Part shown: positions 2,146 through 61,679 of the stretch, piece by piece
Layout of the letters: each line of letters starts with the position of its first letter
Numbering within the stretch: the stretch's first letter is position 1
Made by a program: the position numbers and the translations under genes
The notes under the pieces: generated by a model
The model's database searches: none
What the model saw: only the letters and a program-made list of their open reading frames with translations
Told to the model about the DNA's origin: nothing
From: Ceratorhiza oryzae-sativae
Lineage: Eukaryota > Basidiomycota > Agaricomycetes > Cantharellales > Ceratobasidiaceae
Reading direction: 5' to 3'
Assembly: GCA_030998015.1 (NCBI GenBank)
Contig: JARWMV010000010.1
Span: 1 to 64,000, forward strand
Length of the DNA: 64,000 nucleotides

Positions 2146-2505
2146 ACTGCATTTTTGGCACCTTGAACCCTTCTGTTGAGGAAAGTGAAGTAGGGGTCTT
2201 CAATAGTACAAACCAAACTTTTTGACTACATGTAGGTAAGAAGACTTATCACATATTCAAGCTATGAGTGATGGGATTTTCTAATACAACACTTCAGTAT
2301 ATGGCCTGGTACATGAGATGATATGTGAGGTGACACATGGACTAGGTAATGGAATGTACTAGTTGATATCTTCAGTACCTTCCTTTTAAATACCAGGTAC
2401 TGCCCAATGGACACAAATGGACCCATGATATTGATGTGTGCTAGAATTGACCACATACATGGGGCTCTGAATACTCATGACGCCTGATTTCTATGGAGTA
2501 AGTGG
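2146..2505 (+). repeat. Diverged direct repeat, copy 2 (mate about 1,138-1,497)
   Basis: Second copy of the duplication described at 1,138. It keeps the same order of landmarks but has several short indels. Confidence 0.6.
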
Positions 2506-2731
2506 GTGGGCACCTACTGACATCATGGTTCCTCAAAACTTCAATCCAACACTAGACAGTTCTTGTGGAGCTGATTGCAATGCTGTTCTGGCTGTGGAGC
2601 CTTGGTGCCAACCATGAATTTTTGTATTACACTCAGGCCCTTTTCAATATAGGCAACCCTAATTCTGCTCAATTTTTGAAAAGTTGGAGATTGCAGTGCC
2701 ATAGAGGGGTTTGTCTATTTGCTTTTCATTG

Positions 2732-2858
2732 CTAAAGATGGACACAAAATTTCAGGAGTGCTTTGGTGCTTTAGCTGTGCAGAGTGGACTTGAAATTTTG
2801 GGTGTGCTGTGGCCATCTGGATGTTGAAGGTGGATGGAAAATTCTGTGTCTGCACTGT
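2732..2858 (+). repeat. Degenerate outlying units of the 46-bp repeat
   Basis: 2,765-2,810 is a clear 46-nt unit (ggtgctttagctgtgcag ... gtgctgt). It is followed by a 48-nt unit and preceded by a partial one. They lie about 650 bp past the main array and are more diverged. Confidence 0.7.
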
Positions 2859-3260
2859 GGTGATGTATCACTTGGTATTTCTGTTGTGCAGGAGCTGTCT
2901 GATGGGTAATTATTCCCATTCATTCATGTAACAATATGTGTGTTTCTACTCTTCATATTGTTATTGACCCAATGCAACTGATGTCCACTGAAGCAGGCAT
3001 AGTGTAGTCCAACAACTCAACCCTCTGTTCAGGCCAGATCACCCTAAGCCTATGACCAAGAGTAAGCAAAGGCCTAGTCTAAGTAATCATTCTTCCTCTG
3101 CAGTACACCTTGGCATTCCTGGACCTGTATTGTACCATTTTATTCTGTCTTGTACAATGGCACCAGCATTACTACCATGATGTGCATTCATAGCAATGGA
3201 TATTGCTCACACTGTTGTAGCATGAGTCACAGAGGATATGACTTGTAGAGGAGAGATAGG

Positions 3261-3916
3261 ATGGGTCCATGGTGTCTCTAACATTAGAAGCACAAGCTTC
3301 TAAGATATCCACTTTTATGCATTCAACCATATATACCTAGCTCTATGCCACTTGCCATTTGCATAACATGTCAGTGGCATTATAAAGTTGTCAGACCTCA
3401 TATAAGGGTCAGCTGCCCAACCAATTGCAGTGCCACTAGTCTGTGTAAGTCCAACCATAAATCAGGTCATACAGTGTCACAGCAGACTTGTCCATGAGGG
3501 ACCTTTGAGTGAGAACTGCTTGAGCACTTTGTCGTACTCCTGCTCCCAGTGGTTAGCATGGGACTTAGGCAACCTAAGTATGGTAGTTTGATTAAGATTG
3601 ATACTCCCACTATCTTTTTGCTGTTGATGCCTTGCCAGCATGCTGGCAAGACATCTGTACTTTTTGATTATTAAGAGTGTGTTTGGTATCATGATTGTGA
3701 CAGCAAGAGTTATGAGAATGGAAAGTTTCCTGCAGGAAAATTGAATGAGAGAGGTATTTTCACACCTTGGACTTTGGATTTTCTGACCTATTTTATTTTA
3801 TTTTCAGAGCTAAGATCCCTGAATTTGAAATGAAATCAGGGTCCTTTTAGGGGAAACCAGGGTTCATTTAGGGGTTTTTTCATACCCAGCATGATAACCC
3901 AGCCTATTTACAGGAC
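3261..3916 (+). repeat. 656-bp duplicated segment, copy 1
   Basis: The segment matches 61,024-61,679 base for base at a constant offset of 57,763, with no indel and only five substitutions that I could find. Homology begins at atgggtccatgg and stops after tttacaggac. The ends are not inverted repeats of each other, and I see no target duplication. A minus-strand frame of about 70 codons is open in both copies but resembles no family I know. Confidence 0.9.
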
Positions 3917-13059: not shown

Positions 13060-13300
13060 CATGCCGGAGACAGGGTCTGCCGAGCTTCCTCTGCTTCGGA
13101 GACGCTCGGTAATGCTGATATAAGGCAAACGGAGATTTTCTCCTTCTCTCTCCCCACCAACTAGGGTTGGCAAGGAGAAGGAGAATCTCCTCGGAGAAGG
13201 TTTCTCCCCCTTGCTTCTATCACGTGGGAGAAAGGGTTCGTCCTCCGAACCAGCCCTTCGGAGACAGGGAACGACATTCGGAGAAATTGCCATACTGGGA
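13060..13300 (+). repeat. CGGAGA-rich hairpin repeat, copy 2
   Basis: The centre is an imperfect hairpin at 13,131-13,190. The arm ggagattttctccttctc pairs with gagaaggagaatctcc, with an inner ccaac/gttgg stem. Flanks carry cttcggagac, tcggagaagg and attcggagaaatt. Related copies lie at about 11,720-11,850 and 14,006-14,130. It looks like a small non-autonomous element or its remains. Confidence 0.65.
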
Positions 13301-13663
13301 TGGTGAGTCACATGTACTCATCGCTTAGACCTCCCGTACCGCCCAAAGCAATCCCGCCCTCGCATTGCGCCATCAACTGACTCACACCCCACCCTACATG
13401 CGGTGTCGGTTTGAAGTGCGTCCGAGCTCATTTCCATATATGTAATATCCCCGAATGCACCATTCTTTGCTCGAGTGATTTTATTTGGCCAATGCTCTGG
13501 TGTGTTGGCATTTCGTGGGTATATAAAAGGTACAATTTGCGGGGGCCACCAGAACTTTTATCGGCCTATTTTATTACTCGACATTTACTGAGGCTTCCGT
13601 TTTCAGTCAAAGTCGTCTCGGTTACCGTTAATCTACAAGCTCGCACTCGACCTTCTACCATCT

Positions 13664-13891
13664 CAAGCATCCTCGGTATCTTCTGAGCATGTCTTTTCAT
13701 CCAGCAAAATGACTTGTACACATTTCCGGAATATGATATCGGCAGCAAATGACTAGGCATTGTAGATGCTAAAGCACGCTCTTCGGTCCAACCCCGATGC
13801 GTCGCTAGACCACGAGGAGTGTACACTCGAGCTCATGGCCCAACATGATGAAGAGTTTTCTGGGCATAGTATCATATCCATTGTCGAATAA
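13664..13891 (+). pseudogene. hAT transposase C-terminal relic 2
   Basis: The frame reads ASSVSSEHVFSSSKMTCTHF, then after two in-frame TAG codons MLKHALRSNPDASLDHEEC and a final segment MAQHDEEFSG, with TAA at 13,889-13,891. This is the hAT dimerisation region and C-terminus. The preceding cagtcaaagtcgtctcg probably includes the acceptor of the last intron. The rest of the transposase is missing. Base composition is CpG-normal. Confidence 0.75.
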
Positions 13892-14005
13892 AATCCTTTT
13901 GTGTATATATTCCATCCTAAATCTGTCATGTACATCATCGCTTCGCACTCTATGGATGGCTCCAGTCTTTCGGGGGTGTATCATCTGACCAATCGTGGCC
14001 GTGTT

Positions 14006-14130
14006 ATTCGGAGACAGGGTCTCCCGAACTTCGGCGACTTCGGAGAATCTTGGTAAGCGGAGGAGAAGGAGAAGGAGAATTTACCCTTCTCTCTCCTCAC
14101 CAACCCTATCGCCAACCCTGCCCCCAGTAT
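14006..14130 (+). repeat. CGGAGA-rich repeat, copy 3
   Basis: It contains ttcggagacagggtctcccg, cttcggagaatct, aggagaaggagaaggaga and ctctctcctcaccaaccc. These are the same ordered blocks as the copies near 11,720 and 13,060, but truncated after the CCAACC block. Confidence 0.6.
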
Positions 14131-15477: not shown

Positions 15478-15479
15478 TA

Positions 15480-17118
15480 CACTGGCTTACTAAACTCTTG
15501 CAGCACGTGAGGTTTCTCACATTGTTTCGACATGAAGCGGCTGCGTCGTGCGAACGGCTCAGCCTGCCGCCAAGAGTTATTACTGTAGCATGTAGTCAGA
15601 TATCTAATGTATACGTGTGCGAAAATCTAGACGATCTGAATTGCTGGAAAATGAGCAATGAGAAAACTCCCATGGAGGTAGGCTGCAAGACTAATGTAGT
15701 TCACAAGTGCCAAACACAAGCATGGTTGTTCTGACATCCGTAATTACACAAAACTCTAGTAGACATGTGGAAGAATATGATCTGGAGCATTCAGTATCTA
15801 GTATTACCCCCCTTTGCATCAGTTACACTTTGAATTCAAGAAGGAATCAACACATATAGCTGATCAATAAAATCTTGAGGAATACAGTGCCACTCCTCCT
15901 GTAAAGCCAGCCACAATTCCTCCCTATTATGTGGGAGATGCTCCCAAGCATGAACTTTATGGTCCAAGTAGTTCCATATGTGCTCAATGATATTTAGGTC
16001 AGAGCTAGAGGCCAGCCAGGGGAGTAATTCAATTGAGCAGTTGGACAACCAATTCCAGGCAACTTCTGAAGTGTGTTTAGGATCATTATCCTGCTGAAAA
16101 AATATCTGATTTCTCTTCAGCTTATAGTCCTTGATTGTACCAAGGAGTGCCTCCTGAAGAATTTCAGTGTAAAACAAGCTGGTTAGGATTTTGTCAATGT
16201 GGAAGAGGTGTCCAACACCTTGGGAAGTAACACACCCCCATACTATAACATTTCCTCCACCATGCTTCACAACTTTTGAGGTATAAAAAGGGTCTAGGGA
16301 CTTGCCCAGGTGATGCCAACTGTAAGTCTTCCCATCTGAGCCAAATATGTTGAATCTACTCTAGTCAGAGTAAATCCCTTTGCACCACTTTGCCACTGTC
16401 CAGTCTGCATGTTCCTTGGCCCAATCAAATCAAATGCCCTTGTTGCAGAAGTTAATAAACAGGACCTTTTGGTGCACATATGCATGAAGGCCAGTGTCTC
16501 TGAGAGCACAACAAAAGGTCTGAGGGTGAACTGAGGGAAAGAACTTGTGCTGCAAGTCAACAGCAGTAAAATTCCAAGTTTGAGCAAGTGAAAGAGCTGC
16601 AAATCAACCATCAGCTGGGGTGAGCTTATGAGGACAACCAATTTTAGGCTTTTTTGAGAGGGAACTGCAAGGTTTCCAAGTGCATTTAGCAATCCTGCTA
16701 ACAGTAGTGGGGCCAATATGAAAAGCAGCTCCAATTTTGTAAGTGGTAAGCCCCCAAGCCTGCATGTTAGCAATAAGAGCTCTAGTAGGAGTGTTGACAC
16801 ATTTGCCTGGCATAAGTACAAGAATTGAGGGAATACAGCAATTGTAGAGCCAGAAAATGGCCTGTATTTATTGTATGCATACCCAAGTGGTGCACAAATT
16901 ACCTAAGTCTTGCAGCCTACCTCCATGGGAGTTTTCTCATTGCTCATTTTCCAGCAATTCAGATTGTCTAGATTTTTGCACACATATACATTAGATATCT
17001 GACTACATGCTACAGTAATAACTCTTGGTGGCAGGCTGAGCTGTTTGCACAATGCAGCTGCTTCATGTCAAAACAATGTGAGAAACCTCACATGCTGCAA
17101 GAATTTAGTAAGCCAGTG
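15480..17118 (-). mobile_element. Tc1/mariner element Tc1-A, TA target duplication
   Basis: The element starts CACTGGCTTACTAAA and ends with the inverse. TA dinucleotides flank it at 15,478-15,479 and 17,119-17,120. The terminal inverted repeats are 210 bp (15,480-15,689 and 16,909-17,118). Total length is 1,639 bp with a Tc1-type transposase on the minus strand between the repeats. Each TIR holds an outer tcttgcagc and an inner inverted gctgcaaga. The left TIR keeps 11 CpGs; the right TIR and the interior have almost none. Confidence 0.92.
15836..16813 (-). pseudogene. Tc1-A transposase, inactivated
   Basis: On the minus strand the N-terminal helix-turn-helix region (ANMQAWGLTTYKIGAAFHIG) starts at 16,813. 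A frame-shifted middle follows, then a region with GIYSD-stop-SRFNIFGSDG (near 16,355), HGGGNVIVWGC, the second catalytic Asp in FFQQDNDPKHTSEVAWNWL, and LPWLASSSDLNIIEHIWNYL with the third acidic residue. The C-terminus ends LYVLIPS at 15,836. A TAG replaces the Glu that normally follows the first catalytic Asp (SDES), and at least two frame changes lie between 16,604 and 16,270. No functional protein is possible. Confidence 0.88.
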
Positions 17119-17120
17119 TA

Positions 17121-17525
17121 TACTGTGTTTTTCACCTGTGTTTTTAGCTTGCTCTCATTTGTTTTATTCACTTGCTTACCCAGTTTTCTGGCAGACTTGC
17201 AAAACACACACAATGACATGGGTATCTCTTTAAGAGCTAGACAAGGAAATGGGTGGTTTACCTGAATGGGTTGCCCAGGTTGAGTAGCTGAATAAGCCTA
17301 CCCAGGTAAGGCCCAGCAGCTGCATGGGGCAGTGCAGGTATAACCCAGGCAGGTTGTGCCAAATGAAATACCAGTATGAGCCACATATAGACAATTGTGC
17401 AGGTATTGTTCAGTGCATAGCCTGAGGATATGATCATGTATAGTAACAGAAAAAAATTTATACTGTTGGTGTGGTACTTCCTTCTGAAGTTGAACCCCTG
17501 TGGGGTTTTTACAATCTTGATGGCT
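17121..17525. other. CpG-poor spacer between Tc1-A and copia-1
   Basis: No gene is recognised. The stretch is CpG-free and continuous in composition with copia-1. Confidence 0.5.
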
Positions 17526-17530
17526 GAACC

Positions 17531-17824
17531 TGTTGAATTTACAATCATATGCATGTATGTATGCACATATTTGTTTCTGTTTCCTATCCCCCTCTCTCTG
17601 ATATCATGTGCAAGTTTGCAGGGAACCCCTTTTCTCCTTCCTTAGTTCTCTACCTTTGTAGTTGAGCTAAGGTATTGTATTTTCTTTCTCTCCTCATGTA
17701 TTCTATTCACACTGTACTCTGTAGTATGATTTGTATCTTAGGTACAGTATATATAGTTCTCTACCTTCACAGTCAAGCTAAGTACAATTTGTATCTTAGC
17801 CATGAGAAACCTCCCTGTGTGAGA
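17531..17824 (+). repeat. copia-1 5' LTR
   Basis: 294 bp from TGTTGAATTTACAATC to ccctgtgtgaga. It contains tatatag near 17,750 as a possible TATA element. It has no CpG at all, whereas the 3' LTR has 12. A probable primer-binding site, ggttatgagccc, follows at once. Confidence 0.9.
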
Positions 17825-17828
17825 GGTT

Positions 17829-18997
17829 ATGAGCCCTGCAGCCTCTACTAGTATGAAACCAGAGAGCCCTGTTGGCCCAGTAACAGTCCTGCTCCCAATG
17901 TCATTGAGCAAACCAAGCTACCTCAGCAAGAAATTGTTCAACATCCCTGCTCTGAAGAGCAATGGATTGAACTACACAGCATGGAAGTTCTGTCAGCAAA
18001 TGGTCCTATGCCTACAAGGCTTAGAGGACATTGTTCTTGGAGTTGAGAAACCCCTGACTGAACTCACCAATGCTGATGCCAAGACAAAGCCAAGGCCAGC
18101 AAATATACCAAATCCCTGGCCAAGTGGCTGAAGCAAGACCACAAAGCATTTGCCCAGATCTTGTTGGCAATGGAAGATGAAGTGCTGGCCAATGTAGTTG
18201 AAGCAACATTGTCCCAGGATGCATGGATGCAGGTTGTTGAGTGGTGGGAAGGGAAAGGAGCCCAGTCAATATCCTTCCTGTACCACCAACTAGTCAATAC
18301 AAAGATTGAGGAGGATCATGACATTACCACAGGTATAAATTCCCTCCATACAATTGCTTCAAAGATGAAACTGCTAGGGGAACTAGTCAGCAACTCTATG
18401 CTTGCACAAGTCATGATGAATGCATTAGCTCTGTTGTATGCTGTTGTCAGCATGGTCATTCAGACATCAAACCAATTGGGTTCAATTATCTCCAACTTAG
18501 TTATAAAGGCTGCATTAGCCAAGGAAGAGCATTGCAAGAAGGGTCTTGGACTCACCACAATGTTCACAAGCATTGCCAAGCACAAAGCTACAATGTTGAA
18601 GGCAAAGGAGCAGCCCTCAAGACAGAGTGCTAAGACCTGCTCCAATTGCAGCAAGCCTAGACACTTAAGGGCTAAATGCTGGGTGAAAGGAGGTGGTGCA
18701 GAGGGCCAAGGTCCATTTCAAAAGTGGCGGTTGCTGAAGGACAAGGGCAAGGGAAAAGACAAGGACAAGGACAAGTCCAGCAATACAAAGCCAAAAGCCA
18801 AGTCAGCACAGATTGTGATGACATTTGTAGCTATGGACAACATACCAGTTATGCCAACACTATATGCACTACCTGTAGTTGATGAAGAGACAGCTGCACA
18901 CTATTGGCTGATCAACTCAGAGGCATCTTGTCACATGACCCCTCAGCACAAATGGTTTTTGACTTACCAGTCCCTTGTGCCTCCAGTCCTGGTTTGA
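17829..18997 (+). pseudogene. copia-1 gag and protease start
   Basis: Starts ATG at 17,829, just after the LTR. Gag includes LKSNGLNYTAWKFCQQM, then shifts frame near 18,085 and continues as KWLKQDHKAFAQILLAMEDE and onward. A CCHC zinc knuckle follows at about 18,640 (CSNCSKPRHLRAKC). The retropepsin start reads HYWLINSEASCHMTP (about 18,900) where the family has a D-S/T-G triad; Asp has become Asn and Gly has become Glu, both G-to-A changes. The frame stops at 18,997. Confidence 0.85.
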
Positions 18998-19087
18998 GTC
19001 AGCAACAGAACCAAGATATATGCAGTTGGCATTGGCCAAATCTTAGTCACACTTTGTAATTGCAAGGGTCATGAGACCAACACATAC

Positions 19088-21530
19088 ATGGAATCAGTGC
19101 TGCACATACCCAATCTAAATGCAAACCTGATGTTGGTGACCCAACTCAACAAGAAGTGGACAAATGTCCTGTTCCAGAGAGGCATTGGTGTGATTATGAT
19201 TAGTCAGGATGGTCAAGGCAATGATATAGGATGGGCAAAGCAGTCAGGGCAACTCTACAAGGTTCAAGCAAAAATTACACACACCAATTCTACCATGCAT
19301 ACAGCCTTTGTAGAGCCAGACAGCAAAAATAACAATAGCAATTTACAGGCCCAAGACTTTGTTGCATATACCACGAGTACAGTTGCATGAGCAGACCTAC
19401 CTACCTGCCACCACCAATTTGGTCACCTAAACTATGAATAGATGCTAGATATGGTGAGGAAAGGTGCAGTTGAAGGGATGGACATAGTGGGAAACCGCTC
19501 ACCTCCCAAGTTGAAATGTGGCCTGTGCCTCCAAGGGAAGCATACACATGCGCCCTTTCCACCATCCCAATCTTGTACCTCTGAGGTACTCAAGCTTATG
19601 CACAGCAATCTACATGGCCCCTTACCTGTTCAAGCAATTGGAGGATTCCAATATTTTTCTGTAATGATTGATGATAAGTCCTGCAAGATATTTGTGCATT
19701 TATTGTGCAACAAGAGCAATTATGCAGGTCAATTCAAGGACCTCAAAGCATCAATTGAGAATATCATGGGAAGGCAAATTAAACACTTACAGACAGATGG
19801 TGGTGGCAAGTATGGGTCAAACACCTTTGAGGCTTTCTTGCAAGTGGAAGGGATCCAGCAGCAAAAGACCAAAGCAGATTCATCAGCCAGTAATGGCATT
19901 GCCAAGCAAGCAATATGTACCCTAAACAACTGTCAGTGTGCAATGCAATTTGATGCACATTTACCCAAGAAATATTGGGGTTACACAATCTTACATGTGG
20001 CTCACCTGTGGAACATAACACTGAAGAAATGCCTAGATGGCCAAATGCCAAGCAAAGCATTTAGTGGCAAGATCCCAAATGCATTGGGATTACATATGTT
20101 TGGATGCAAGGCCTGTGCTCACATGCCAGACAATATGCACATGAAACTCCAAGCACACTCAATCAAGTGCATATACCTTGGATTTGCTCCTAATAGGAAG
20201 GTGCATGTGCTTGCTCAGTGCAGTACCAGTTGCATAATCACCTCATGTGATGTAGTCTTTGACAAAGGGCTGGACAATTGGCAGTGCATGGTTATCAAGG
20301 ATCATGATGAGGGTCCTACTGATGATGATGAGGGTAAATTGGATGAATTACCACCCATTCAGATAGAAATTCACTCACCCAAATCATCTGATAAACCACT
20401 CAAATTGTCAGAACCTGCACATATACCCAATGAACCAGAAGCCTTACCATCTGAGAGCCTGGACTTGGAGTCTGAAGACCAAGAAATAGTTGTTTTACAG
20501 CCAGATCTGCTGCCAGTGCATCAATCTACATGCAAACAAAGAGTGCCCATACAATATGGAGCACAAGTGGGCAATTTAGCACATACAGATGGATTAGGAG
20601 ATGAAGAGGCACTTACTGAAATAATTGAATTGCCACCCCAGACCTTTGAGGAAGCCATGTGTCACCCAGATGCAAATCTGTGGCTTGAAGCAATGACAGA
20701 AGAGCTGAAATTGATCAAGCAGCACAAAGTATGGATGCTCATGAGCTGTCCTATTGACAAAAATGTTGTTAAATGCCAATGGGTTTTTGACTACAAGCAT
20801 GGAGCTGATGGCAAGATTGTTTGCTACAAGGCTCAATTAGTTGCAAAGGGCTTTTCTCAGCACCCTGGAGTCAACTTTGTTGAAATTTCATCACCTGTTG
20901 CTGCTGCCAATTCCTTACAGACACTCTTAGGCATTGTAGCTGCTCTAGACCTCAAGCTTCTCCAAATCAATGTTAAAACAGCCTTTTTACATGGGGATCT
21001 TGACAAGGAGATTTATATGGAGCAACCTCCAGGCTTTGTTGAAGGCCTGGAATCTGTCTGGAAGCTCAACAAGGTGATTTATGGTCTCAAACAGGCAGTG
21101 CAAGCCTTCTATATGCATCTCAAGAAAATCCTTGAAGATATAGGATTTAAACAATGTGATACAGATCACTCTGTATTCTGGCTATGCAATGGTGAAAAAG
21201 TAGCAATTATACTTAGCCATGTGGACAATATGCTACTTGCTGGATCATCTACAGAAATCCTCAATAAGGTTAAGGCTAAAATCACTGAATCACTAGAAAT
21301 CATTGATCTAGGCAAGGCCAAAATGTTTGTAGGCATTGAAATTGAGTGCAATCACAGTGCAGGCACTCTCAAGATCTCTCAGCACTGCTATATCAATGAT
21401 ATTCTTGCTTGCTTCAATATGTCCAACTGTAAATCATGCAAAACTCCAATGGCTGAATCTCCCAATCTACCAAAGCTTGAAGCGCCATTGATCAATTGGA
21501 ACTGCTACCAGCAGCTCATTGGGTCTGTTA
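19088..21530 (+). pseudogene. copia-1 protease end, integrase and reverse transcriptase
   Basis: After a short protease remnant (MESVLHIPNLNANLMLVTQL), the integrase zinc region (CGLCLQGKHTHAPF) and catalytic core are visible. The first catalytic Asp is Asn (LMHSNLHGP) and the second lies in LQTDGGGKYGS. The RT reads WVFDYKHGADGKIVCYKAQL, AFLHGDLDKEIYMEQPPGF, VIYGLKQAVQAFYMHL and HVDNMLLAGSS, where the YVDD active site has become HVDN. The frame ends where Tc1-C enters at 21,531 and resumes at 24,452. Confidence 0.88.
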
Positions 21531-21706
21531 CAGTGGTCATCAAATCAAATGGTACATGTGACTTGCTCAACTTTAAGCTGCTGCAACAGGCCATGTAGGC
21601 TAAAAGATACTGATGTAGAATAATGGAAGTTGCACAAATAAGTGACGTCTCTTACACTGCCAAGTCTCATGTAAATTGAGAATGACATTGGGAGAAATAG
21701 GGGGAA

Positions 21707-23005
21707 TGTTATGGATTGCTAACATTTTATTTCATTATAGTCTGCCCTGCCAACTGTAATGCAATCCAATTGTGAATTTACTATAAATGAATGAATTTGT
21801 ATGTGTTCAATTTGTACTATTTTGTATATCATAAAATAGTATAAATTCTCATCTTTCCAACGCATATTTTATCGTGATTTTATCTTAAGAATTCATTGAG
21901 ATATGAAGGTTGCGATATTTCCACCTTCAAAGTGATTTTGATCACCGGATCGCATCGCTTATATCTCGGCAACCGCTTACGCTACAACGGTGATCAAGTA
22001 CTCATTCGATAGCTAAGATTCGGGCACATCTTCTGACCGAAGATCGTTGCGATCGAAGCGATCTACAGCCCGACGCAGCCCGAACATCGTCGGGATCTGA
22101 TTGGATCATCAAACAAGATCCACTGGCTCAAGTGAGTCAGGAGAACCACCCTAATTGATCTAGGTGCTTCCTTGACTCACCTTATGACTCACTGAGATGT
22201 TAGCTCGCTTCTTTATATGTATATACTATGATTAATATATGAAACAGCCAATAGCATGTCTTCAATTGCATGCTGCCATTGATCCACTCCCACTCTTTAA
22301 ACCACTCTTCCTATACTGGGAAATGGGAGTCCCCCTGGTATAGCAGTACCCTCTTTGATGATCAACTTGGCATGCATGCAGTTATTTGGCTCTGGAGTGC
22401 CCTCTGAAGGGCATAAAAGGACCCCCTCTGAGGCCCTTCCAGAACCCCTCCTCTTACACACTCACACAGACTTGTTTTTGGTTTCCTTTTCTCTTTTCTC
22501 TTTCTGTGTGATTCTTTGTAACTAGTCTGAACCAAAGTTGTATCAGATATAGTTATATTCTGTGTGATTCATAAGTATCTTATATACAGAGATATATAAG
22601 GATACTTTCTTGCCTGATCAAGCGTGACTTGAGTACCAATCAATAGAACTATAAGTATCTATTAAGATTGTGGTACAGTACACGCATTAGGCAGTACACC
22701 ATTAATTCCATAAGCAACAGCTTAATCTAGAATTAAGATTAGTATCAGTTAGTCCAAGTGGCTAGGGCTGAACTACATTTAAAGCTATCTAAGGGAACCT
22801 GACCATAGTAGTCTTGCTCTTTATAACTATAAATTAGTCAGTTTATACTGTGAACGATTAAGACTATATTAAGTGTTACTTGATCGCATTGAACTACATT
22901 TAGCCTTCTTACTCAAGTCTAAGAAGTATTGAGTATGATTAGGGCATACTAACCTATCTTATCTTCTTAAGGTATAGAAATCTAGGTGTACCCTGACCCG
23001 TAACA
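21707..23005 (+). repeat. Solo LTR 1 of a 1.3-kb gypsy-type LTR family
   Basis: 1,299 bp, TGTTATGGATT ... GACCCGTAACA, with GGGAA on both sides (21,702-21,706; 23,006-23,010). About 200 bp near 21,860-22,095 are dense in CpG. Three TGACTCA-type sites follow (22,133-22,139; 22,173-22,179; 22,185-22,191), and a TATA-like cataaaagg lies near 22,411. Antisense relatives are at 39,429-42,320 and 50,805-52,094. No internal region accompanies it, so it is an LTR-LTR recombination product. Confidence 0.92.
22133..22191. promoter_or_regulatory. Cluster of TGACTCA (Gcn4/AP-1-type) sites in solo LTR 1
   Basis: Three exact TGACTCA or TGAGTCA heptamers occur within 59 bp, about 220 bp upstream of the likely TATA box. 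This is the binding site of fungal bZIP factors of the Gcn4/CpcA class. The cluster is conserved in the two other copies of the LTR. A role in transcription is inference. Confidence 0.5.
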
Positions 23006-23136
23006 GGGAATGAACGTTTTTATTGTTCCATTTGATATGTGGCTGGGCAAATATTTGCTACTCTCCTATCCTCAGCCACCTCAATGCTGCATTTAAGGTG
23101 CAGTAAAATGCCCATGCTCCCCAGACTCATTCAAAC

Positions 23137-24165
23137 ATGCCTTCTTGTTGTCCACAACACTCTCCTGAGGTTTGTACTCAGATTCTGGCTCTTCATGAGA
23201 CTGGCTTAACTATTTGTCTTATTGCAGCCAAACTTGGTGTTCCTGTGACCACTGTTCAGTGTACATGCATGAATTACAAGAAAACCCATAGCTACTACTC
23301 AAATCATGCTTGCTCAGGCCACCCTTGCAAGCTGCACCTTGCCAATGCAAAATTTGCTGCACTTTCTCTGTCATGCAATCAATTGGCCACCACAGAGCAG
23401 CTCCATTGTGACTATTTTCCACATATCTCAGCCAAGACTGTCCACTGTTGCCTCTGCAAGCTTGGTATCAAGAACTACACCTGTTGGTGTGTTCCTTTGC
23501 TTACCAAGCAGCACCTCAAGGCCTTCCATGATTGGGTGCAAGACCATGCAACATGGTTGGCTGGTGATTGGCGCTGCATAGTGTTTTCAGACAAGTCAAA
23601 ATTCAACATATTTGGTAGCAACGGCCCTCTCCATTGCTAGAGACGACCAGGTTTGGTGCTTGACCCATGCTATACTCAAAAGACAGTCAAACACAGTGGG
23701 GGGAGCATTATGGTTTGGGGCTGCATCACAGCAGATGGGGTGGGCTGACTGCATCATATAGATGGGCACCTTACAGCAGTATGGTACACTGAAATCTTGC
23801 ACAGTGAGCTCATGGGAACCCTGCACAATCATTCCCTTACTCCTTGTCACACAATCTTCCAACATGACAATGATCCAAAGCATACAGCCATGCACACATG
23901 TGAGTGGATCACCAACCATTGTCTCTCCCTCCTTCCCTGGCCAGCCAACAGCCCTGATATGAACCTGATCAAGAATGTTTGGGACTACTTGGAGCATCAG
24001 GTTTGTATGCATTCTCCTTTGCCACAGAATGCAGATGATTTGTGGAGGATTCTTCAGGAGGAGTGGGTGTGCATTCCCCAGTCTTATATTGATAAATTGT
24101 ATGATTCAATGATGCATCACATTGAAGAACTTCTTGCTTGGAAGGGCAGAAATACTTGCTACTAG
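23137..24165 (+). pseudogene. Tc1-C transposase, inactivated
   Basis: Begins MPSCCPQHSPEVCTQILALH with an HTH (GLTICLIAAKLGVPVTTVQ). The catalytic core reads VFSDKSKFNIFGSNG (about 23,590), where the usual SDES has Glu-to-Lys. A TAG at 23,638-23,640 replaces Trp and a TGA lies near 23,746. FQHDNDPKHTA carries the second Asp, and PANSPDMNLIKNVWDYL has Lys where the third acidic residue should be. The protein ends at 24,165. Most lesions are G-to-A or C-to-T. Confidence 0.9.
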
Positions 24166-24451
24166 TATTTTTCTGTGTTGTCTTAATGTAATGTTCTATT
24201 CTGCCTTTGAATGCAGGTGCACACACATTTGAGCTTTGTCAGCCTCATATCAAATGGAACAAACAAAACCATTGTTTAGAGCCTACAATGTTGCAGACTT
24301 CACATAAAGCTATAAGAATTGACACAGCTTATACTATAATGATTCTAAACAACTTTTATTACTGCTTGTAGGTGCAAATCAGCCTATGTGGCCCATTGCA
24401 GCAGCATTAAGTCAAGCAAGTCACATGTACCATTTGATTTGATGACCACTG

Positions 24452-25206
24452 TATGTATGCTATGATTTCTACCCAACCCAACATTGCATATGCTACTGGT
24501 ATACTTGCACAACACACAATGAATCCTGGCAAAGAACACTGGAACTCCAGCAAATGAGTTCTCTGCTATCTTAGGGATGCTGTGCCAGAATGAATTCTAA
24601 AGTCTGGCAGGTGCAGGAATATAACAAATTGTAATTGCAGGAATGAAGACTATTACAAAAATCTATTCTGGCACAGCATCTCTACACTATCTCAAAGGTA
24701 CTATGGACTTAGGCATTGTCTATAATTGCTTTTGCAATTTAAATCTGCTTGGATATGTCAATGCTGATTATGCTGGCAATAAGCATACAAGCCATTTGAC
24801 TACTGGCTGGGCTTTCCTACATGCCAGTGGCATAATTGCTTACTCATCTTGGAAACAGCTGACTATTTCCCTATCAAGTACCAAAGCCAAATATGTTGTC
24901 AATGCTAGTGCTGGACACAAACTTTTATGGATTTGTTGATTTTTATCCAAACTTGGTTTTCTCTCTGAGGGTGCTACTCCCTTATTCTCAGACAATCAGT
25001 CTGCTATGGCCCTAGCTAAGAATCCTGTCAATCATCAGACAATGAAGCATATATGCGTCAAGTATCATTTTATTCACAAAGTGATTGCTCTGAAAGAACT
25101 CAACCTGCAATATATACCTACAGAGAAACAGCTCGCAGATGCGCATACTAAGCCCCTAGGACACCTCAAGTTTACTTGCTTTGTGTCTGCGATGGGAATG
25201 GCGTGA
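24452..25206 (+). pseudogene. copia-1 RT end and RNase H
   Basis: Directly after Tc1-C the copia frame continues (STQPNIAY-like, LAQHTMNPGKEHWNSS). It is then cut by the 109-bp MITE and resumes with LHYLKGTMDLGIVY, the RNase H block GYVNADYAGNKHTS and ISLSSTKAKYVVNASAG, where the family has D and E. It closes with NHQTMKHICVKYHFI and QLADAHTKPLGHLKF. A TGA splits 24,939 from 25,006. A purine-rich stretch (ggattgagtggg) just before the 3' LTR is the likely polypurine tract. Confidence 0.85.
24574..24682. mobile_element. 109-bp MITE (T2), same termini as T1 and T3
   Basis: The termini are GGGATGCTGTGCCAGAAT and its near-inverse at the right (ATTCTGGCACAGCATCTC), with TA on both sides (24,572-24,573; 24,683-24,684). 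It interrupts the copia RNase H frame. It has no coding capacity and is the shortest member of the T family. Confidence 0.85.
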
Positions 25207-25258
25207 AATTCTTTTCTTTTCTTTTATCCGCACATTCACGCATAGGATTGAGTGGGCG

Positions 25259-25552
25259 TGTTGAATTTACAATCGTATGCGTGTATGTATGCGCATATTT
25301 GTTTCTGTTTCCTATCCCCCTCTCTCTGATATCATGCGCGAGTTTGCGAGAAACCCCTTTTCTCCTTCCTTAGTTCTCTAACTTTGTAGTTGAGCTAAAG
25401 TATTGTATTTTCTTTCTCTCCTCATGTATTCTATTCACGCTGTACTCTGTAGTACGATTTGTATCTTAGGTACAGTATATATAGTTCTCTACCTTCGTAG
25501 TTGAGCTAAGTACGATTTGTATCTTAGCCACGAGAAATCTCCCTGCGTGAGA
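25259..25552 (+). repeat. copia-1 3' LTR
   Basis: 294 bp, the mate of 17,531-17,824. It keeps 12 CpG sites, each of which is TpG or CpA in the 5' LTR. It marks the return to CpG-normal DNA. Confidence 0.92.
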
Positions 25553-25679
25553 GAACCTACCTTGTCGACGCCAACTGTACCGGGGCCATCCAGCCTAAAC
25601 GAGGCGCCCGATCATTACCTCAACAAGCTCTATTACGTGGGCGACGAAGAGGTTTGGCTAGTTCCACACACGCTCCTCA

Positions 25680-39026: not shown

Positions 39027-39838
39027 TGAGCCCCCTGGCTGGGCAAAGTCAAGGTAAGCCACTCATTTCCTTTTGTCCTTTCATATACTTATCTCAACCA
39101 ACTAATCTTAGTTCCTTGACCAGTATTCAACCTGGCATGCTGGTGAAAACTCATCTTACCCAGAAATGTAAGTATCATTGCATACATTCCAGAACCTGAA
39201 TTAACACTGCTGTTATAGTTGTGCTGGCACACATTATCACTTACTTGTTCACCTGCCTTGAATTCCCCCTTTTCACTCCATCCCCATCCTTAATGCCCCA
39301 TATTATACTCCTAACTGCTGATTCTCCATCTGACATGCACCTCAACCCAAATCCTCTCTTGAAGAATACTGGAAACACCTTGCACAAGCCATCAAACTGG
39401 TTCCTTGGGGTATCAAATAAGCAAAAGTTGTTACAGGTCAGGGTGCACTTAGATTTCTATACCTTAAGAATATAAGATAGATTAGTATTCCCTAATTGTA
39501 CTCAATACTTCTTAGACTTGAGTAAGAAGGTTCAATGTAGTTCAATGCAATCAAGTAACACTTAATATAGTCTTAATCATTCACAGTATAAACTGACTAA
39601 TTTATAGTTATAAAGAGCAAGACTACTATGGTCAGGTTCCCTTAGATAGCTTAAATGTAGTTCAGCCCTAGCTGCTGGGACTATCTGATACTAATCTTAA
39701 TTCTAGATTAAGCTGTTGCTTATGGAATTAATGATGTACTGCCTAATGCATGTACTGTACCACAATCCTAATAGATACCTATAGTTCTATTGATTGGTAC
39801 TCAAGTCACACTTGATCAGGCAAGAAAGTATCCTTATA

Positions 39839-41423
39839 CACTGCCATCCAAAATGATTGACCCACATGATGAAAAAGTGACATTTCACCACCACATCTCT
39901 AACAATTGTGATTCATGTACATACATGAGTGTGAATGCAATCTATACTACTGCAGAGTACAAGTGCAAAAATAAATAGAAAAATCGATAAGCAGAGTGTG
40001 GAGAAATAAAAGAAGTAAGTTGGGTGCTGGGTCAATCATTTTGGATCATGTAAGCAAAAGCCAACCTCTACTTCTCTCCTTGACCCCCAGTGAACTTATT
40101 CTCTCATATTCCTCAGGTTTTTCTGCTTCATGGTGGCTGCTATATCTCCCTCAAAACGCACATATATTGTTCATCTCAAACAAAAGGGTCTTTCTGACTG
40201 AGATGTAGCTAGTAGGTTGGCACCCATAGGTTACAGAACTGTCAGGCGTATCTGGTCTAGTTACCTTTGTGGCGATGATATATTTACTCCTGGGCATTCT
40301 ACTGGTTGGCCATGTAAAATGGATGAATTGGCAGGTCATTGGGCTGCACTTTTAATCTCTCGGGGTGTTGTCAAAACAGCTGCTGAGTTGCAATGTGACT
40401 TTTTCCCCAATCTTAGCATCAATACAGTGAGATGGCAGCTGATAGAGCTGGGATTTCATGTTTATTGCCAACACCAATGGCTGCTACTTGATTGGAAAAA
40501 GCACTGGCACTGCTTGCAGTGGGGATGTGACCATTTAACATGGGACAAAGTAGATTGGGCTAGGGTGACATTTTCTGATGAGTCAAAATTCTTTATTTTT
40601 GGTGCTGGAGGCCCAGATATATACTACAAGAAGGTTGGAGCTCCAGCAAAGCCAGAGCATGTGAAACCAGTGGTCAAATATGGTGGTGGCCATGTTATGG
40701 TCTGGGGGTACATAATTGCTGATGGCGTTGGGCAACTGCACATTATTGATGGTACACTGACTGCAATCAAATACACTGAAATACTGTCTACTGAGTTCCT
40801 TTGCCCCCTGATCAAATCCTGCACACCTGTCTTCCATTATCTTCCAGCATGACAACAATCTGAAGCACACTGCTTGGTTGACCAAGAAATGGCTGCTTGA
40901 TCATCATGTCAAAGTTCTTCCCTGGCCTGCTAGCAGCCTGGATATGAACCTGATTGAGCACATATGGGCATACCTTTATGTTGCTGTTTGTGCTACATCA
41001 CCACTTCCCGCAAATTGTGCTGGAGTGGCCAAGGTGCTGAAGAGGGAGTGGAGGAAGATACCCAAGAGCTACATCCAGAAACTCTATAGGTCAATGCCCC
41101 ACTGAGTAGCAGCAGTTGTAAAGGCAAAGGGGGTAACACTAGGTATTAGAACAACTCATGCCAGGTGAGTGTTTCTGCCATGCCTCGCAGGGGTGAAGTC
41201 TTGTTTGCTTACATGATCCAAAATGATTGACCCAGTGCCTGACTTACTTCTTTTATTTCTCCACACTCTGCTTATTGATTTTTCTATTTATTTTTGCACT
41301 TTTACTCTGCAGTAGTATAGATTGCATTAGCACTCATGTATGTACACAAATTGCAATTGTTAGAGACACAGCAGCAAAATGTCACTTTTTCGTCACATGG
41401 GTCAATCATTTTGGATGGCAGTG
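39839..41423 (+). mobile_element. Tc1/mariner element Tc1-B inside solo LTR 2
   Basis: The termini are CACTGCCATCCAAAATGATT inverted, with TA duplications at 39,837-39,838 and 41,424-41,425. TIRs are about 220 bp (39,839-40,059; 41,204-41,423). The 17-mer CCAAAATGATTGACCCA occurs four times without mismatch: outer 39,848-39,864, inner inverted 40,028-40,044, inner 41,218-41,234, outer inverted 41,398-41,414. Confidence 0.94.
40130..41105 (+). pseudogene. Tc1-B transposase, lightly damaged
   Basis: ATG at 40,130 opens MVAAISPSKRTYIVHLKQKG, then a TGA at 40,199-40,201 interrupts the HTH region (DVASRLAPIGYRTVRRIW follows). The core has VTFSDESKFFIFGAGG (first Asp), GGGHVMVWGYIIADGVGQL, and after a frameshift near 40,850 FQHDNNLKHTA (second Asp) and SLDMNLIEHIWAYL (third acidic residue present). 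The C-terminus is SYIQKLYRSMPH. All three catalytic positions survive, so it is the least decayed Tc1 gene here, with one stop and one frameshift visible. Confidence 0.9.
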
Positions 41424-42332
41424 TATATCTCTGTATATAAGATACTTATGAATCACACAGAAAATAACTATATCTGATACAACTTTGGTTCAGACTAGTT
41501 ACAAAGAATCACACAGAAAGATATAGAAGAGAAAAAGAAACCAATAGCAGTCTGGGTGGGTGTGAGTAGGAGAGGAGGTGCTCTGGAAGGGCCTCAGAGG
41601 AGGTCCTTTTATGCCCTGCAGAGGGCACTCCAGAGCCAAATAACTGCATGCATGCCAAGTTGATCATCAAAGAGGGTACTGCTATACCAGGGGGACTCCC
41701 ATTACCCAGTATAGGAAGAGTGGTTTAAAGAATGGGAGCTGATCAATGGCAGCATGCAATTGAAGACATGCTATTGGCTGTTTCATATATTGATCATAGT
41801 ATATACACATAAAGAAGCGAGCTAACATCTCAGTGAGTCATAAGGTGAGTCAAGGAAGCATCTAGATCAATTGGGGTGGTTCTCCTGACTCACTTGAGTC
41901 AGTGGATCTAGTTTGATGATCCAATCAGATCCCAACGATGTTCGGGCCGCGTCGGGCTGTAGATCGCTTCGATCGCCACGATCTTCGGTCAGAAGATGTG
42001 CCTGAATCTTGGCTATCGAATGAGTACTTGATCACCGTTGTAGTGTAAGCGGTTGCCGAGATATAAGCGATGCAATCTGGTGATCAAAATCACCTTGAAG
42101 GTGGAAATATTGCAACCTTCATATCTTACTGAATTCTTAAGATAAAATCATGATAAAATATGCGTTTGAAAGAGGATAATTTGTACTATTTTATAAACAC
42201 TAAAATAATACAATTAAAAATCATACAAATTCTTCATTTACAATTAAATTCAGATAAGGAATTGCAACATGGTTTGCAAGGGCAGATTATAATGAAATAA
42301 AATGTTAGTAATCCATAACAAAAAGTGATGAT

Positions 42333-50804: not shown

Positions 50805-52094
50805 TGTTACAGGTCAGGGTACACTGAGGTTTCTGTATCTTAAGGATGTAAGATAGGTTAGTATTTGCTATTTGTGCTCAATACTTCTTAGACTTGAGTA
50901 AAAAGGCTCCATGTAGTTCAATGCAATCAAGTAACCCTTAAAATAGTCTTAATCATTCACAGTATAAACTGACTAATTTAGAGTTATAAAGAGCAAGACT
51001 ACTATGGTCAGGTTCCCTTAGATAGCTTAAATGTAGTTCAGCCCTAGCCACTTGGACTAACTGATACTAATCTTAATTCTAGTTTAAGCAGTTGTTTATG
51101 GAGTTAATGGTGTACTGCCTAATGCATGTACTGTACCTCAAATCCTAATAGATATTTATAGTTCTATTGATTAGTACTAAAGTCATGCTCAATCAGGCAA
51201 GAAAGTATCCTTGTATATCTTTGTATATAGGATACTTATCAATCACACAGAATATAACTATATTTGACACTACTTATGATTCAGACTAGTTACAAAGAAT
51301 CACACAGAAATATATAAAAGAGAAAAGAGAACCAATAGCTGTCTGGGTGAGTAGAGGGGGAGGAGGAGGTGCCTGGAAGGGCCTCAGAGGAGGTCCTTCA
51401 ATACCCTGCAGAGGGCATTCCAGAGCCAAATAGTTGCATGCATGACTATTTGATCATCAAAGGAGGGTAGTCCTATACAGGAGGACTCCAATTACCCCAT
51501 ATTGGAAAGAAGGTTAAGGATTGGGAGTAGATCAAAAGGCTGCATGCCAAGGAAGACATGCTATTGGCTGTTTCATATATTAGTTATAGTATATATATGC
51601 ATAGAAATGAGCTAACATCTCAGTGAGTCATAAAGTGAGCCAAGGAAGCATCTAGATCAATTGGAGTGGCTCTCCTGACTCACTTGAGTCAGTGGATCTT
51701 GTTTGATGATCCAATCAGGTCCTGACAATGTTTGGACTGCATCAAGCCAGAGATTGTTTCAATAGACAGGAGCTTTGGTCAGAAGATGTGCCCAAAACTT
51801 AGCTATCAAATGAGTACTTGATCACTGCTATAGCATAAGCAATTGCCAAGATATAAGCAATGCAATCCAGCAATTAAAATTACCTTGAAGGTGGAAATAT
51901 TCAACCTGCATACCTCACTGAATTCTTAAGATAAAATCATGATGAAATATGTGTTTGGAAGAGGAAGATTTATACTATTTTATGAAGTACAAAATAGTAC
52001 AAATTGAACACATACAAATTCATTCAGATTCAGGATTGCATTGGAGTTGGCAAGGGCAGACTATAATGAAATAAAATGTTAGTAATTCATAACA
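50805..52094 (-). repeat. LTR copy 3 of the 1.3-kb family (antisense)
   Basis: About 1,290 bp from TGTTACAGGTCAGGGT to TTAGTAATTCATAACA. The flanks (aattg / ttctg) do not match, so a simple insertion is not supported. The island that is CpG-rich in copies 1 and 2 (about 51,715-51,960 here) has lost essentially every CpG. TGACTCA sites remain at 51,624-51,630, 51,676-51,682 and 51,685-51,691. Confidence 0.9.
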
Positions 52095-54600
52095 TTCTGA
52101 GAGTGCCAACAACATGTCCACAGACAACTAAATCTGGAGCATTTTTTCAGTTGTTGCCAAAATGTCTCAGCATTCTTGTGGGCTCTTTTTTTCATCCAAT
52201 GATTTTCCTTTCATAGTGCCTCAATTTTGTGTGCACTTGTTGATGGACTACTAGTATAAAATCTCCTCATCTCTCCTGCCTTCTTCACCTGCTCTCTGTC
52301 TGTTGTCTCATCTTTTGTTGGCTTCTTTCCTCTGATGGCTTATGCTGTGTGCAGGTCCTCAGCCACCACTCTATTACTGTGTGCTTGTAATTTTCTTTTA
52401 CATCATCATATCCACTTCTTACCTAGGTTTTGCACAGATTAACTCCTGCCAGATGCAACTTTTTTAGCTCAACAATTAATCCCAAAGTGTTGATTGCTCT
52501 GTACTGTAATTAGCTAGCCACAATGAATCAAAACACCTCCTATCTCATATGTTTTTTCTGGTTTCCAGGTTCAGATCTGAGTATTTTGTTTTTCTACCAA
52601 TGATTTGATTGTGTTTGTGACCCCTGTTTTAAGAAATAATTAAGACCCCAATATCTGTTTGATGCACACCAAATCTCAATCAGCTAATCTGATCAGCCTT
52701 GTGAATCCTGTCTACATCTAATCTAATTTTCTATGGGCAATGTTTGGGTGGGTAATTCAATCTGTAATTCCACTTGGTAATCAAGCTTAATTGTACTTGT
52801 ATCTACCTTTTGTGATCAAAAGTAACTAGCCAACATAAATGATCTCTAAAGTCACAGATTGTAATCAGGTGTTATTACTCCATGTAATCATATTGCTTAA
52901 TTACACATGTAATTAAGAAAATAATACAAGGGGGTTTTGTTATGGTTTAACTGGTTTAATACCATTTATTAATTGTAATTTTACCTACGACTTTTTGCTG
53001 AGTTAGCGAGCACCTTGCTTTACTCTATTATATGTCTGCTGCTCTCACATCTACATTGTGTAAAAAGACTGGAGGTAGGCCGTAGTTTCATTATACTTTG
53101 GCCAGGACTATCAGTCTTCATGATATTATGATAGCATCCTGGTGCTACTTTCGAGCTTACCAGAGGATTTACAGTAGTTTCAGTCGATTACGAGTGGAAG
53201 GGGCTGTGGTATGGGATATCATAAGGCGATCCACTGGTGCTTGTGTATGTACATCATTCGACGCGCCGAAACACGCTGAATCCCACGGTGCCATTTTTGT
53301 CTTGGTACAAGGAGATTTGAGCAAGATATAGGCGAAATATATCTCCGGCCTGTTTTTTTTTTTGTCAACACCTCACCTAAGCGCCAGGTCCGGACCTGTT
53401 TGCAAAACGCAATAAACTCGCCTGCCATCTCGTCCCCAACTTCTCTTCCCCGTTAACACCGGTTATTTTGAACAGCTTCTGCAGGGCTGTTCTCCAGAAG
53501 TCATGTGTGCTCTTGAACAAATAGTACAACCATTCTACCTTTCTCCTCATGAAGCACTGGCGTCAGCTTCTCACCAACGAATGCAACCCCTGTTCCGCTT
53601 AGTTGATTTTCTCCCATATTTCCTGTCGTACTGTCAATTTTTTAACATATAATAGATTCCTCTGTTGGCTGCTGTAACGTGACCATTGACCATAACCTAT
53701 GGTGGATTGTATGCGCGATTTTATACGATTTTTAAGCTCGTGCAATTAGTTGCAATGAATGCCGGACTGTTCATTGTACACAGTGCAATTGGTGCATAAA
53801 ATGAACTGCTGCTGTGCTTACTGAAGGCATTCACTTGCCCCCGGTTTGGTTGCACCCACCATATTTCTAGAGCACCTTGTTCTGCGTACTAGTTGTTGAG
53901 TCTTGTGATTTTGAAGCCGAAAGTTCTCTAGTATTGTTTTTATGAATTTTTTTTCGCGTTTTGGTCCTCTAATTTCAGATCGCACAACTGGCTGATGTGT
54001 TTACATAGTAAAAGTGACACTGTTACATGGTTTGATCAGCGGTTAGATAAGGTTCCTTATATCTGTTGCGTATCTGCCTTACCTCACGAGCAATCCGCAT
54101 TGTGACGAAGCCGAAGAGTGGAGGTGCCTAGACAGGGGGTGGAAGGGAACAGCTTTAAGCTCCATCTGGGTCAGAGGCACCACGTTCGGCCGTATTGCAC
54201 ACACCTCTACCCCACGTTCCCACGCAGCAAATTCGGCTGATAAGAACTTATCGACGACTCCCATGATGTTCCAAAACAGAACTCAATACCTCTGCCCAAC
54301 CTCTGCCTTGGGCACTCCACAGCATTCATATCACACATCTTTGGTGAAATTTTACAATCTTTTGATTCAAGGGTTGACAACCGTGAGAGCGCGGCTGTAC
54401 ACGAGCCCGTCCAGTTGGGGCTACCAGATTGCGACTTTAACTTATCCCATCTGAACGGGGATGAGGTAGTAAAAGCGAAGGCATGTCCATAATGGGATTC
54501 TCGTGAGGCAGTCATCGGTTCACCTCACATGATACGCCCAGTGGTTTAACTGCATATGAAGAGCCCACACCCGTACTACAGATCTTTGTCTTCCACATAC
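52095..54600. other. Intergenic; CpG-poor to about 52,970, then CpG-normal
   Basis: No gene is recognised. Composition changes sharply near 52,970. The small frames from 53,098 on have no known motif. Confidence 0.45.
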
Positions 54601-61019: not shown

Positions 61020-61023
61020 TAGC

Positions 61024-61679
61024 ATGGGTCCATGGTGTCTCTAACATTAGAAGCACAAGCTTCTAAGATATCCACTTTTATGCATTCAACCATATATACC
61101 TAGCTCTATGCCACTTGCCATTTGCATAACATGTCAGTGGCATTATAAAGTTGTCAGACCTCATATAAGGGTCAGCTGCCCAACCAATTGCAGTGCCACT
61201 AGTCTGTGTAAGTCCAACCATAAATCAGGTCATACAGTGTCACAGCAGACTTGTCCATGAGGGACCTTTGAGTGAGAACTGCTTGAGCACTTTGTGGTAC
61301 TCCTGCTCCCAGTGGTTAGCATGGGACTTAGGCAACCTAAGTATGGTAGTTTGATTAAGATTGTTACTCCTGCTATCTTTTTGCTGTTGATGCCTTGCCA
61401 GCATGCTGGCAAGACATCTGTACTTTTTGATTATTAAGAGTGTGTTTGGTATCATGATTGTGACAGCAAGAGTTATGAGAATGGAAAGTTTCCTGCAGGA
61501 AAATTGAATGAGAGAGGTATTTTCACACCTTGGACTTTGGATTTTCTGACCTATTTTATTTTATTTTCAGAGCTAAGATCCCTGAATTTGAAATGAAATC
61601 AGGGTCCTTTTAGGGGAAACCAGGGTTCATTTAGGGGTTTTTTCATACCTAGCATGATAACCCAGCCTATTTACAGGAC
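61024..61679 (+). repeat. 656-bp duplicated segment, copy 2
   Basis: The mate of 3,261-3,916, with five substitutions and no indel. It starts 3 bp after the TA that flanks T3. Confidence 0.9.

Follow-up and report, generated by a model that had tools for sequence, protein, structure and literature searches.

Nearly CpG-confined C-to-T change in a transposon block of Ceratorhiza oryzae-sativae, with borders inside the outermost elements

CpG-biased, methylation-linked mutation of transposons is already known from basidiomycetes. Rhizoctonia solani AG8, probably a member of the same fungal family as the fungus studied here, has a CpG-biased RIP-like hypermutation that is commoner near repeats (Hane et al., 2014, PMC4014442). 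According to the excerpted text, about 40% of its C/T SNPs lie at CpG; these SNPs are differences between nuclei, with genes included, and a TpCpG bias was not expected (PMC4014442). In basidiomycete transposons a CpG signature, obtained by comparing copies to a consensus, was tied to the Masc2-type Dnmt1, and methylation followed by deamination was proposed (Amselem et al., 2015, PMC4352252). Ganoderma, likewise an agaricomycete, has a CpG-preferring RIP that goes with 5mC, and almost all RIP-affected transposons were methylated according to the excerpt (PMC4457147). Microbotryum has a TpCpG RIP-like hypermutation (PMC5381629; Horns et al., 2012, as cited there), and in Zymoseptoria tritici a Dim2-dependent mitotic C-to-T mutator was shown by experiment (PMC8016269).

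The locus described here shares C-to-T change with a CpG bias with R. solani AG8, a CpG-only transposon signature with the elements of Amselem et al. (2015), and the CpG target and preference for T before C with Microbotryum. In Z. tritici C-to-T change in methylated repeats depends on a methyltransferase, but the target is CpA and not CpG. The bias in R. solani AG8 is moderate, whereas here the change was found to be nearly pure CpG, to lie in bordered transposon blocks and to prefer a pyrimidine before the C. TpCpG is the target in Microbotryum, whereas here every CpG context is affected and T is preferred about 2- to 3-fold over purines within the dyad. Methylation was measured in Ganoderma, while we infer it. 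The excerpt on Ganoderma describes no internal borders, that of Amselem et al. (2015) gives no paired arms, borders or strand choice, and borders between paired arms are not described in the excerpts of any of the five papers cited above; such descriptions may exist in print.

CpG loss from fungal transposons is usually read from copies compared to a consensus or from genome averages, in which age, selection and mutation are mixed. The two arms of a DNA transposon and the two LTRs of an LTR element are identical at insertion and form a before-and-after pair on one molecule. We analyzed such pairs in a stretch of 64,000 nucleotides, here called the window (positions 1-64,000 of contig C10), and in the assembly that contains it (48.8 Mb in 253 contigs). 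Features and LTR pairs are listed in Table 1.

Table 1. Features of the window and LTR pairs of the Copia family elsewhere in the assembly.
Feature	Position	Strand	Remarks
Tc1-A, Tc1/mariner transposon	15478..17120	-	TA at each end counted in; transposase broken, minus strand
Left terminal inverted repeat of Tc1-A	15480..15689	+	CpG-retaining, 11 CpG
Right terminal inverted repeat of Tc1-A	16909..17118	-	CpG-stripped, 0 CpG; 4 TpG and 7 CpA at the 11 sites
Interval with left border of CpG loss	15740..15831		last kept CpG 15,739; first interior TpG/CpA site 15,831
DNA between Tc1-A and Copia	17121..17530		410 bp, 0 CpG; no second copy found (40 of 275 candidates scored)
Copia LTR retrotransposon with nested insertions	17531..25552	+	target duplication GAACC at 17,526-17,530 and 25,553-25,557; LTR tips match
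5' LTR of window Copia	17531..17824	+	CpG-stripped, 0 CpG
3' LTR of window Copia	25259..25552	+	CpG-retaining, 12 CpG
Right border zone	25056..25182		kept and lost CpG sites interspersed; graded profile
Second Tc1-like element in window	39835-41427		2 CpG differences and 9 sites lost in both arms, vs 3 others
C7 LTR pair (loci L061/L065)			7 CpG changes, 0 others in 269 sites
C240 LTR pair (loci L062/L081)			8 CpG changes, 0 others in 264 sites
C232 LTR pair (loci L090/L074)			1 CpG change, 0 others
C33 LTR pair			0 CpG changes, 1 transversion
C244 and C234 LTR pairs			no differences

Repeat detection and alignment located an inverted repeat at 15,478-15,701 and 16,897-17,120, with TA at both ends. 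A minus-strand piece of the element, 15,836-16,360, matched DDE_3 (E 8e-7) and the Sleeping Beauty transposase 5cr4 (E 1.8e-33). With its TA target duplication, terminal inverted repeats and DDE_3 transposase, Tc1-A is a Tc1/mariner element. Its best second copy in the assembly was only 72% identical, and the next best arm about 71%.

The sequence-only reading had taken the 210-bp arms for copies of one sequence that differ at every CpG and nowhere else, apart from a single further difference (aaactc/aaattc), also C-to-T. Aligning 15,480-15,689 with the inverse of 16,909-17,118 gave 12 differences in 210 positions. All 11 CpGs of the left arm were found changed in the right arm, four by C-to-T and seven by G-to-A, in agreement with that reading; the twelfth difference is the further C-to-T it had noted, outside CpG, at 15,495. 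Outside CpG the arms were identical at 190 of 191 sites. No CpG had been hit on both strands, hence there was no TpA among the 11 sites. The left arm has 99 C/G positions, 22 of them in CpG; were the 12 changes scattered over these 99 by chance, at least 11 would fall on CpG positions with P = 6e-8. Three more differences, none at CpG, lie beyond the arm end (15,693, 15,695 and 15,699).

The interior of Tc1-A was compared to a relative at C251:717,623-719,259, which is 72% identical and contains a PF01498 match. Among 92 adjacent double mismatches between the two, 35 paired TpG with CpA, while the next commonest class numbered six. The interior was therefore not CpG-poor from the start. A border had been placed near 15,690. 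A border was indeed found, but 50-140 bp further in: the CpG-retaining zone extends past the arm to a CpG at 15,739, after which the next CpG stands only at 18,728, and the first interior site at which TpG faces CpA in the relative, or the reverse, is at 15,831. The left border therefore lies at 15,740-15,831, about 260-350 bp inside Tc1-A; the C251 relative is uninformative at some columns, and the edge may be nearer the low end of this interval. The claim that CpG-directed C-to-T change had acted on one arm and the interior and had spared the other arm was borne out by these alignments.

No empty insertion site of Tc1-A was found elsewhere in the genome, and matches to the left flank stopped by 15,416. 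Part of that flank, 13158-14109, recurs at 92-93% identity close to where contigs C170 and C11 begin, and also within C45; it is possibly a subtelomeric or contig-end repeat. On the right, 40 of 275 candidates were scored and none matched 17,121-17,523.

A two-state segmentation, with parameters set by hand, divided the window into 20 segments, ten CpG-rich (obs/exp 0.66-1.81) and ten poor (0.01-0.15). One block of about 9 kb has its left edge inside Tc1-A and ends near 25.1 kb inside the Copia element; the segmentation puts these two edges at the outermost dense CpGs, 15,632 and 25,134. The block is nearly without CpG except in a nested repeat, where CpGs cluster over 231 bp. The border in Tc1-A is thus not a property of this transposon alone, because it is one edge of a block that includes the Copia element and the intervening DNA. 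About 34 CpGs would be expected in that intervening DNA, and it was found to hold 75 TpG and CpA together; similar lengths directly outside the block hold 36 and 33 CpG and 43 and 51 TpG plus CpA. Insertion of Tc1-A into the Copia LTR, with the flanks joined, was ruled out, as the LTR begins at 17,531.

The Copia element encodes gag (PF14223), RVT_2 and other pol domains. Its LTR pair differed at 12 CpGs, and one more site was TpG in one LTR and CpA in the other, i.e., lost in both. In the 268 other sites there were six differences, five transitions and one transversion. Compared to locus L076, the nearest copy compared, 17,531-19,300 kept none of the intact L076 CpGs; 121 were lost, and 17 more sites were TpG/CpA. 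Of 1,481 other sites 152 differed (102 transitions and 50 transversions), which marks the window Copia as old or divergent and leaves its LTR pair as the one comparison that can date the changes. At the right border, kept CpGs occur from 25,056 on and the last lost sites are at about 25,177-25,182, varying with the copy compared. Inward from the right end, 5/6, 6/8, 4/9, 1/8, 0/17 and 0/14 CpGs were kept in bins ending at 150, 300, 450, 600, 800 and 1,000 bp.

Other repeats in the window were also recorded. One is present in three copies (21704-23005; 41422-42320 with 39429-39838; 50805-52097). The copy nested in the stripped Copia keeps 21 CpG at 21861-22091, and the copy at 50805-52097 has none; the nested copy is perhaps a young insertion with mutation still to come. 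A 660-bp direct repeat, 3257-3916 and 61020-61679, has two copies that are 99% identical, stand 57 kb apart and are nearly without CpG. Not all transposon DNA in the window is stripped, because a tnp2-type transposase frame (PF02992, 31846-32763) sits in a CpG-rich segment. For a subtilisin-like frame of the window the two best protein hits came from Ceratobasidium sp. 392 (56% identity) and Rhizoctonia solani 123E (45%), which makes the fungus probably one of the Ceratobasidiaceae.

The Copia LTR search, in which 40 of 275 candidates were scored, gave at least 41 matches, and 30 loci were retrieved, 28 of them outside the window. At 24 of these 28, at least 8 of the 12 LTR CpGs were kept and obs/exp was at least 0.67 in the surrounding 1.4 kb or so on both sides, which include the Copia interior itself where the copy is full-length. 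The remaining four kept 0-5 LTR CpGs and had an obs/exp of at most 0.50 on at least one side. Among the listed matches were six LTR pairs about 4.7 kb apart, all six with matching 5-bp target duplications; two further matches on one strand, C53 and C237, with a spacing of about 12 kb, fall outside this set. Summed over the six pairs there were 16 CpG changes, no other transition and one transversion. Partly mutated Copia copies on C7 and C240 span C7:95,487-100,473 and C240:174,176-179,142. The changes in the Copia pairs thus arose in situ, and the CpG-only difference is not peculiar to Tc1-A, because Copia LTR pairs elsewhere show the same. The arms of the C251 Tc1 element had eight CpG differences and three sites lost in both, against four other differences. 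The second Tc1-like element of the window has lost CpGs from both of its arms, in many cases on opposite strands, with nine TpG/CpA pairs and one CpG left per arm. The generality of the pattern extends to one Copia family, three Tc1-type inverted repeat pairs and this window.

Selectivity was measured on a young Copia set of nine loci from seven insertions (C240 and C244 with two loci each). These had lost 373 of 1,229 CpG copy-sites. Outside CpG only 22 of 2,980 columns were variable, and the 22 singletons were six C-to-T, five T-to-C and 11 transversions. Per base, C-to-T at CpG was about 117-146 times other C-to-T, by the exposure assumed (Poisson range 54-398). The ratio assumes that sites are independent and takes no account of saturation; allowing for saturation would make it higher. 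In one comparison L062 had lost 95 CpGs relative to L076, with one transition and three transversions in 1,490 other sites. Losses by 5' base in the young loci were A 59/454, C 76/408, G 48/618 and T 190/978. All 5' contexts were therefore affected and T was merely preferred, unlike the TpCpG-only target of the Pucciniomycotina type. A CpA preference as in Neurospora-type RIP was not seen either, non-CpG C-to-T being without excess over T-to-C among the singletons. The C-to-T excess was confined to CpG in transposons, as in the basidiomycete CpG-type signature.

The strand on which a CpG was hit followed the preceding base. Where the two strands of a CpG offered unlike contexts, the C after a pyrimidine was changed in 314 cases and the other in 127; within the dyad T was preferred over G by 137:41 and over A by 106:47, all of these counts including some sites repeatedly across copies. 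When each site of the young loci was counted only once, the pyrimidine preference was 58:23 with 16 ties (P = 1e-4). By region of the young loci it was strong in the 5' region (69:24), while the middle (30:20) and the 3' region (10:7) were each not significant alone. In Tc1-A the preference was 6:1. Strands were mixed along the copies in 20 of 20 runs tests (|z| <1.9), lightly mutated copies included, with none of the same-strand stretches that bursts on one strand would leave. CpG-to-TpA was found three times, once in L061 and twice in the window Copia. If maintenance methylation marks both cytosines equally, the strand choice would therefore arise at deamination or repair.

The ends of elements were spared. 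At the 3' ends of six partly mutated Copia loci, the last 300 bp kept 81 of 84 CpGs and the zone at 600-1,000 bp 121 of 186 (P = 2e-9); these counts omit the window copy, L082, which served as reference (14/14 and 26/31), and L067, which kept 0 of 62 and has depleted surroundings. Two loci showed sparing at the 5' end as well, with 26/28 kept in the first 300 bp compared to 77/108 beyond 1,000 bp. The much depleted 5' ends of C7 and C240 showed weak sparing (13/28 kept vs 23/108). In all four Copia pairs with CpG differences the 5' LTR loses more (C7 6:1, C240 8:0, C232 1:0, window 12:0). For the six LTR pairs outside the window this amounts to 15 losses in 5' LTRs and one in 3' LTRs, contributed by three elements. 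The arms of the C251 Tc1 kept four and ten CpGs, and its 1.5-kb flanks hold about seven and one CpG; a simple rule that CpG-rich neighbours protect does not predict these arms.

Genes for CpG methyltransferases, as expected with the basidiomycete CpG-type signature, are present as DNMT1-like and DNMT5-like exons. Pfam DNA_methylase (PF00145) had three matches at two loci in the assembly. The DNMT1-like locus matched DNMT1 structures with E 2.8e-10, and a second exon with E 0.0066. The DNMT5-like locus matched 7r76 (table name Rad8; E 3.6e-40), which we take to be Cryptococcus DNMT5. Pfam gave no family in the DNMT1-type exon at 3-464 of L084, nor in L086 at 901-1266 and 2181-3266. The only TET/JBP match was under the family cut-off, one UDG match was above its cut-off, and nothing in the window reached an Rfam gathering score. 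Because two DNMT genes are present, a methylation edge near the left border is plausible.

Altogether, these observations suggest a methylation-linked, CpG-type RIP-like mutation of transposon blocks, a reading from sequence to which we give a probability of roughly 0.75. Transposon blocks would undergo C-to-T change nearly only at CpG, on either strand and with one hit per site, until CpG is almost gone. In the most likely chain, CpG methylation would be upheld by the DNMT1-type and DNMT5-type enzymes, and 5-methylcytosine would then be deaminated, in a step that may be enzyme-assisted or badly repaired, because the change outpaces other mutation by a wide margin and favours a C that a pyrimidine precedes. 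The region 15.74-25.1 kb would be one such domain, and where it adjoins CpG-rich DNA it reaches its limit a few hundred bases into the outermost transposon. This would be why Tc1-A was stripped of CpG in its interior and inner arm but not in its outer arm, and the same would hold for the Copia with its LTRs. Possible, and put forward tentatively, is the more specific reading of a methylation-coupled, enzyme-driven CpG mutator in an agaricomycete, in which the base before the C would choose the strand (T over A or G, C over G), transposon bodies would be saturated before other mutations accumulate, and borders would be drawn inside the outermost transposon without outward leak, leaving element ends unmutated.

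The main rival is passive decay, in which the block would have carried methylation for a very long time and its methylated CpGs would have deaminated spontaneously, no faster than usual. It would account for the graded and partial states, the mixed strands with hits that look independent, the two DNMT genes, and the rarity of CpG-to-TpA, which is expected when a single hit destroys the site. In mammals CpG C-to-T is roughly 10-20 times other C-to-T, and the ratio found here is too high for such a rate. Symmetric methylation alone also leaves the dependence of the strand on the preceding base without explanation, and we regard passive decay as unlikely. Classical premeiotic RIP, in which pairing of repeated DNA sets off C-to-T bursts in duplicated sequence, shares with our data the concentration of C-to-T in repeats and its speed relative to other mutation, and the CpG loss in the DNA that separates the two elements is reminiscent of RIP leakage. 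However, the target is CpG and not CpA, Tc1-A was changed even though its best second copy in the assembly is no more than 72% identical, and the ends are spared while the adjoining outside DNA is still CpG-rich. Bursts of Neurospora RIP fall on one strand, and even lightly mutated copies showed no one-strand runs here. Classical RIP is therefore quite improbable.

Two further explanations concern the switch itself, and we find both of them scarcely credible. If recombination or gene conversion had swapped the left part of Tc1-A with an unmutated copy, the border would be the crossover point; the CpG state does switch across a short interval, and the TA target site is unable to reveal such a switch. 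A donor is absent from the assembly, however, where the closest sequences are those named above, and the non-CpG sites of the arms agree almost completely. The right border moreover lies inside a Copia with a matching target duplication, and of the six other insertions with matching duplications three show CpG differences only. Misassembly or a base-calling error at the inverted repeat could be invoked since inverted repeats are frequent misjoin sites, but the switch lies beyond the repeat, and other insertions whose target duplications match show the pattern too. Nor is a choice of TpG or CpA made copy by copy, with a context preference, what one would expect from miscalling.

Compared to the systems described so far, as excerpted above, what is new here is the control given by paired arms, the measure of how selective the change is, the context-dependent strand preference and the borders inside elements. 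The strand preference is that of a probable agaricomycete; the excerpt on R. solani AG8 had expected no TpCpG bias (PMC4014442). One element was found to record both the selectivity of the mutating process and its stopping point. Paired arms make it testable whether CpG decay is passive or enzymatic, from the ratio and the strand choice, and they do the same for the reach of a silencing domain into and out of a transposon and for the protection of element ends.
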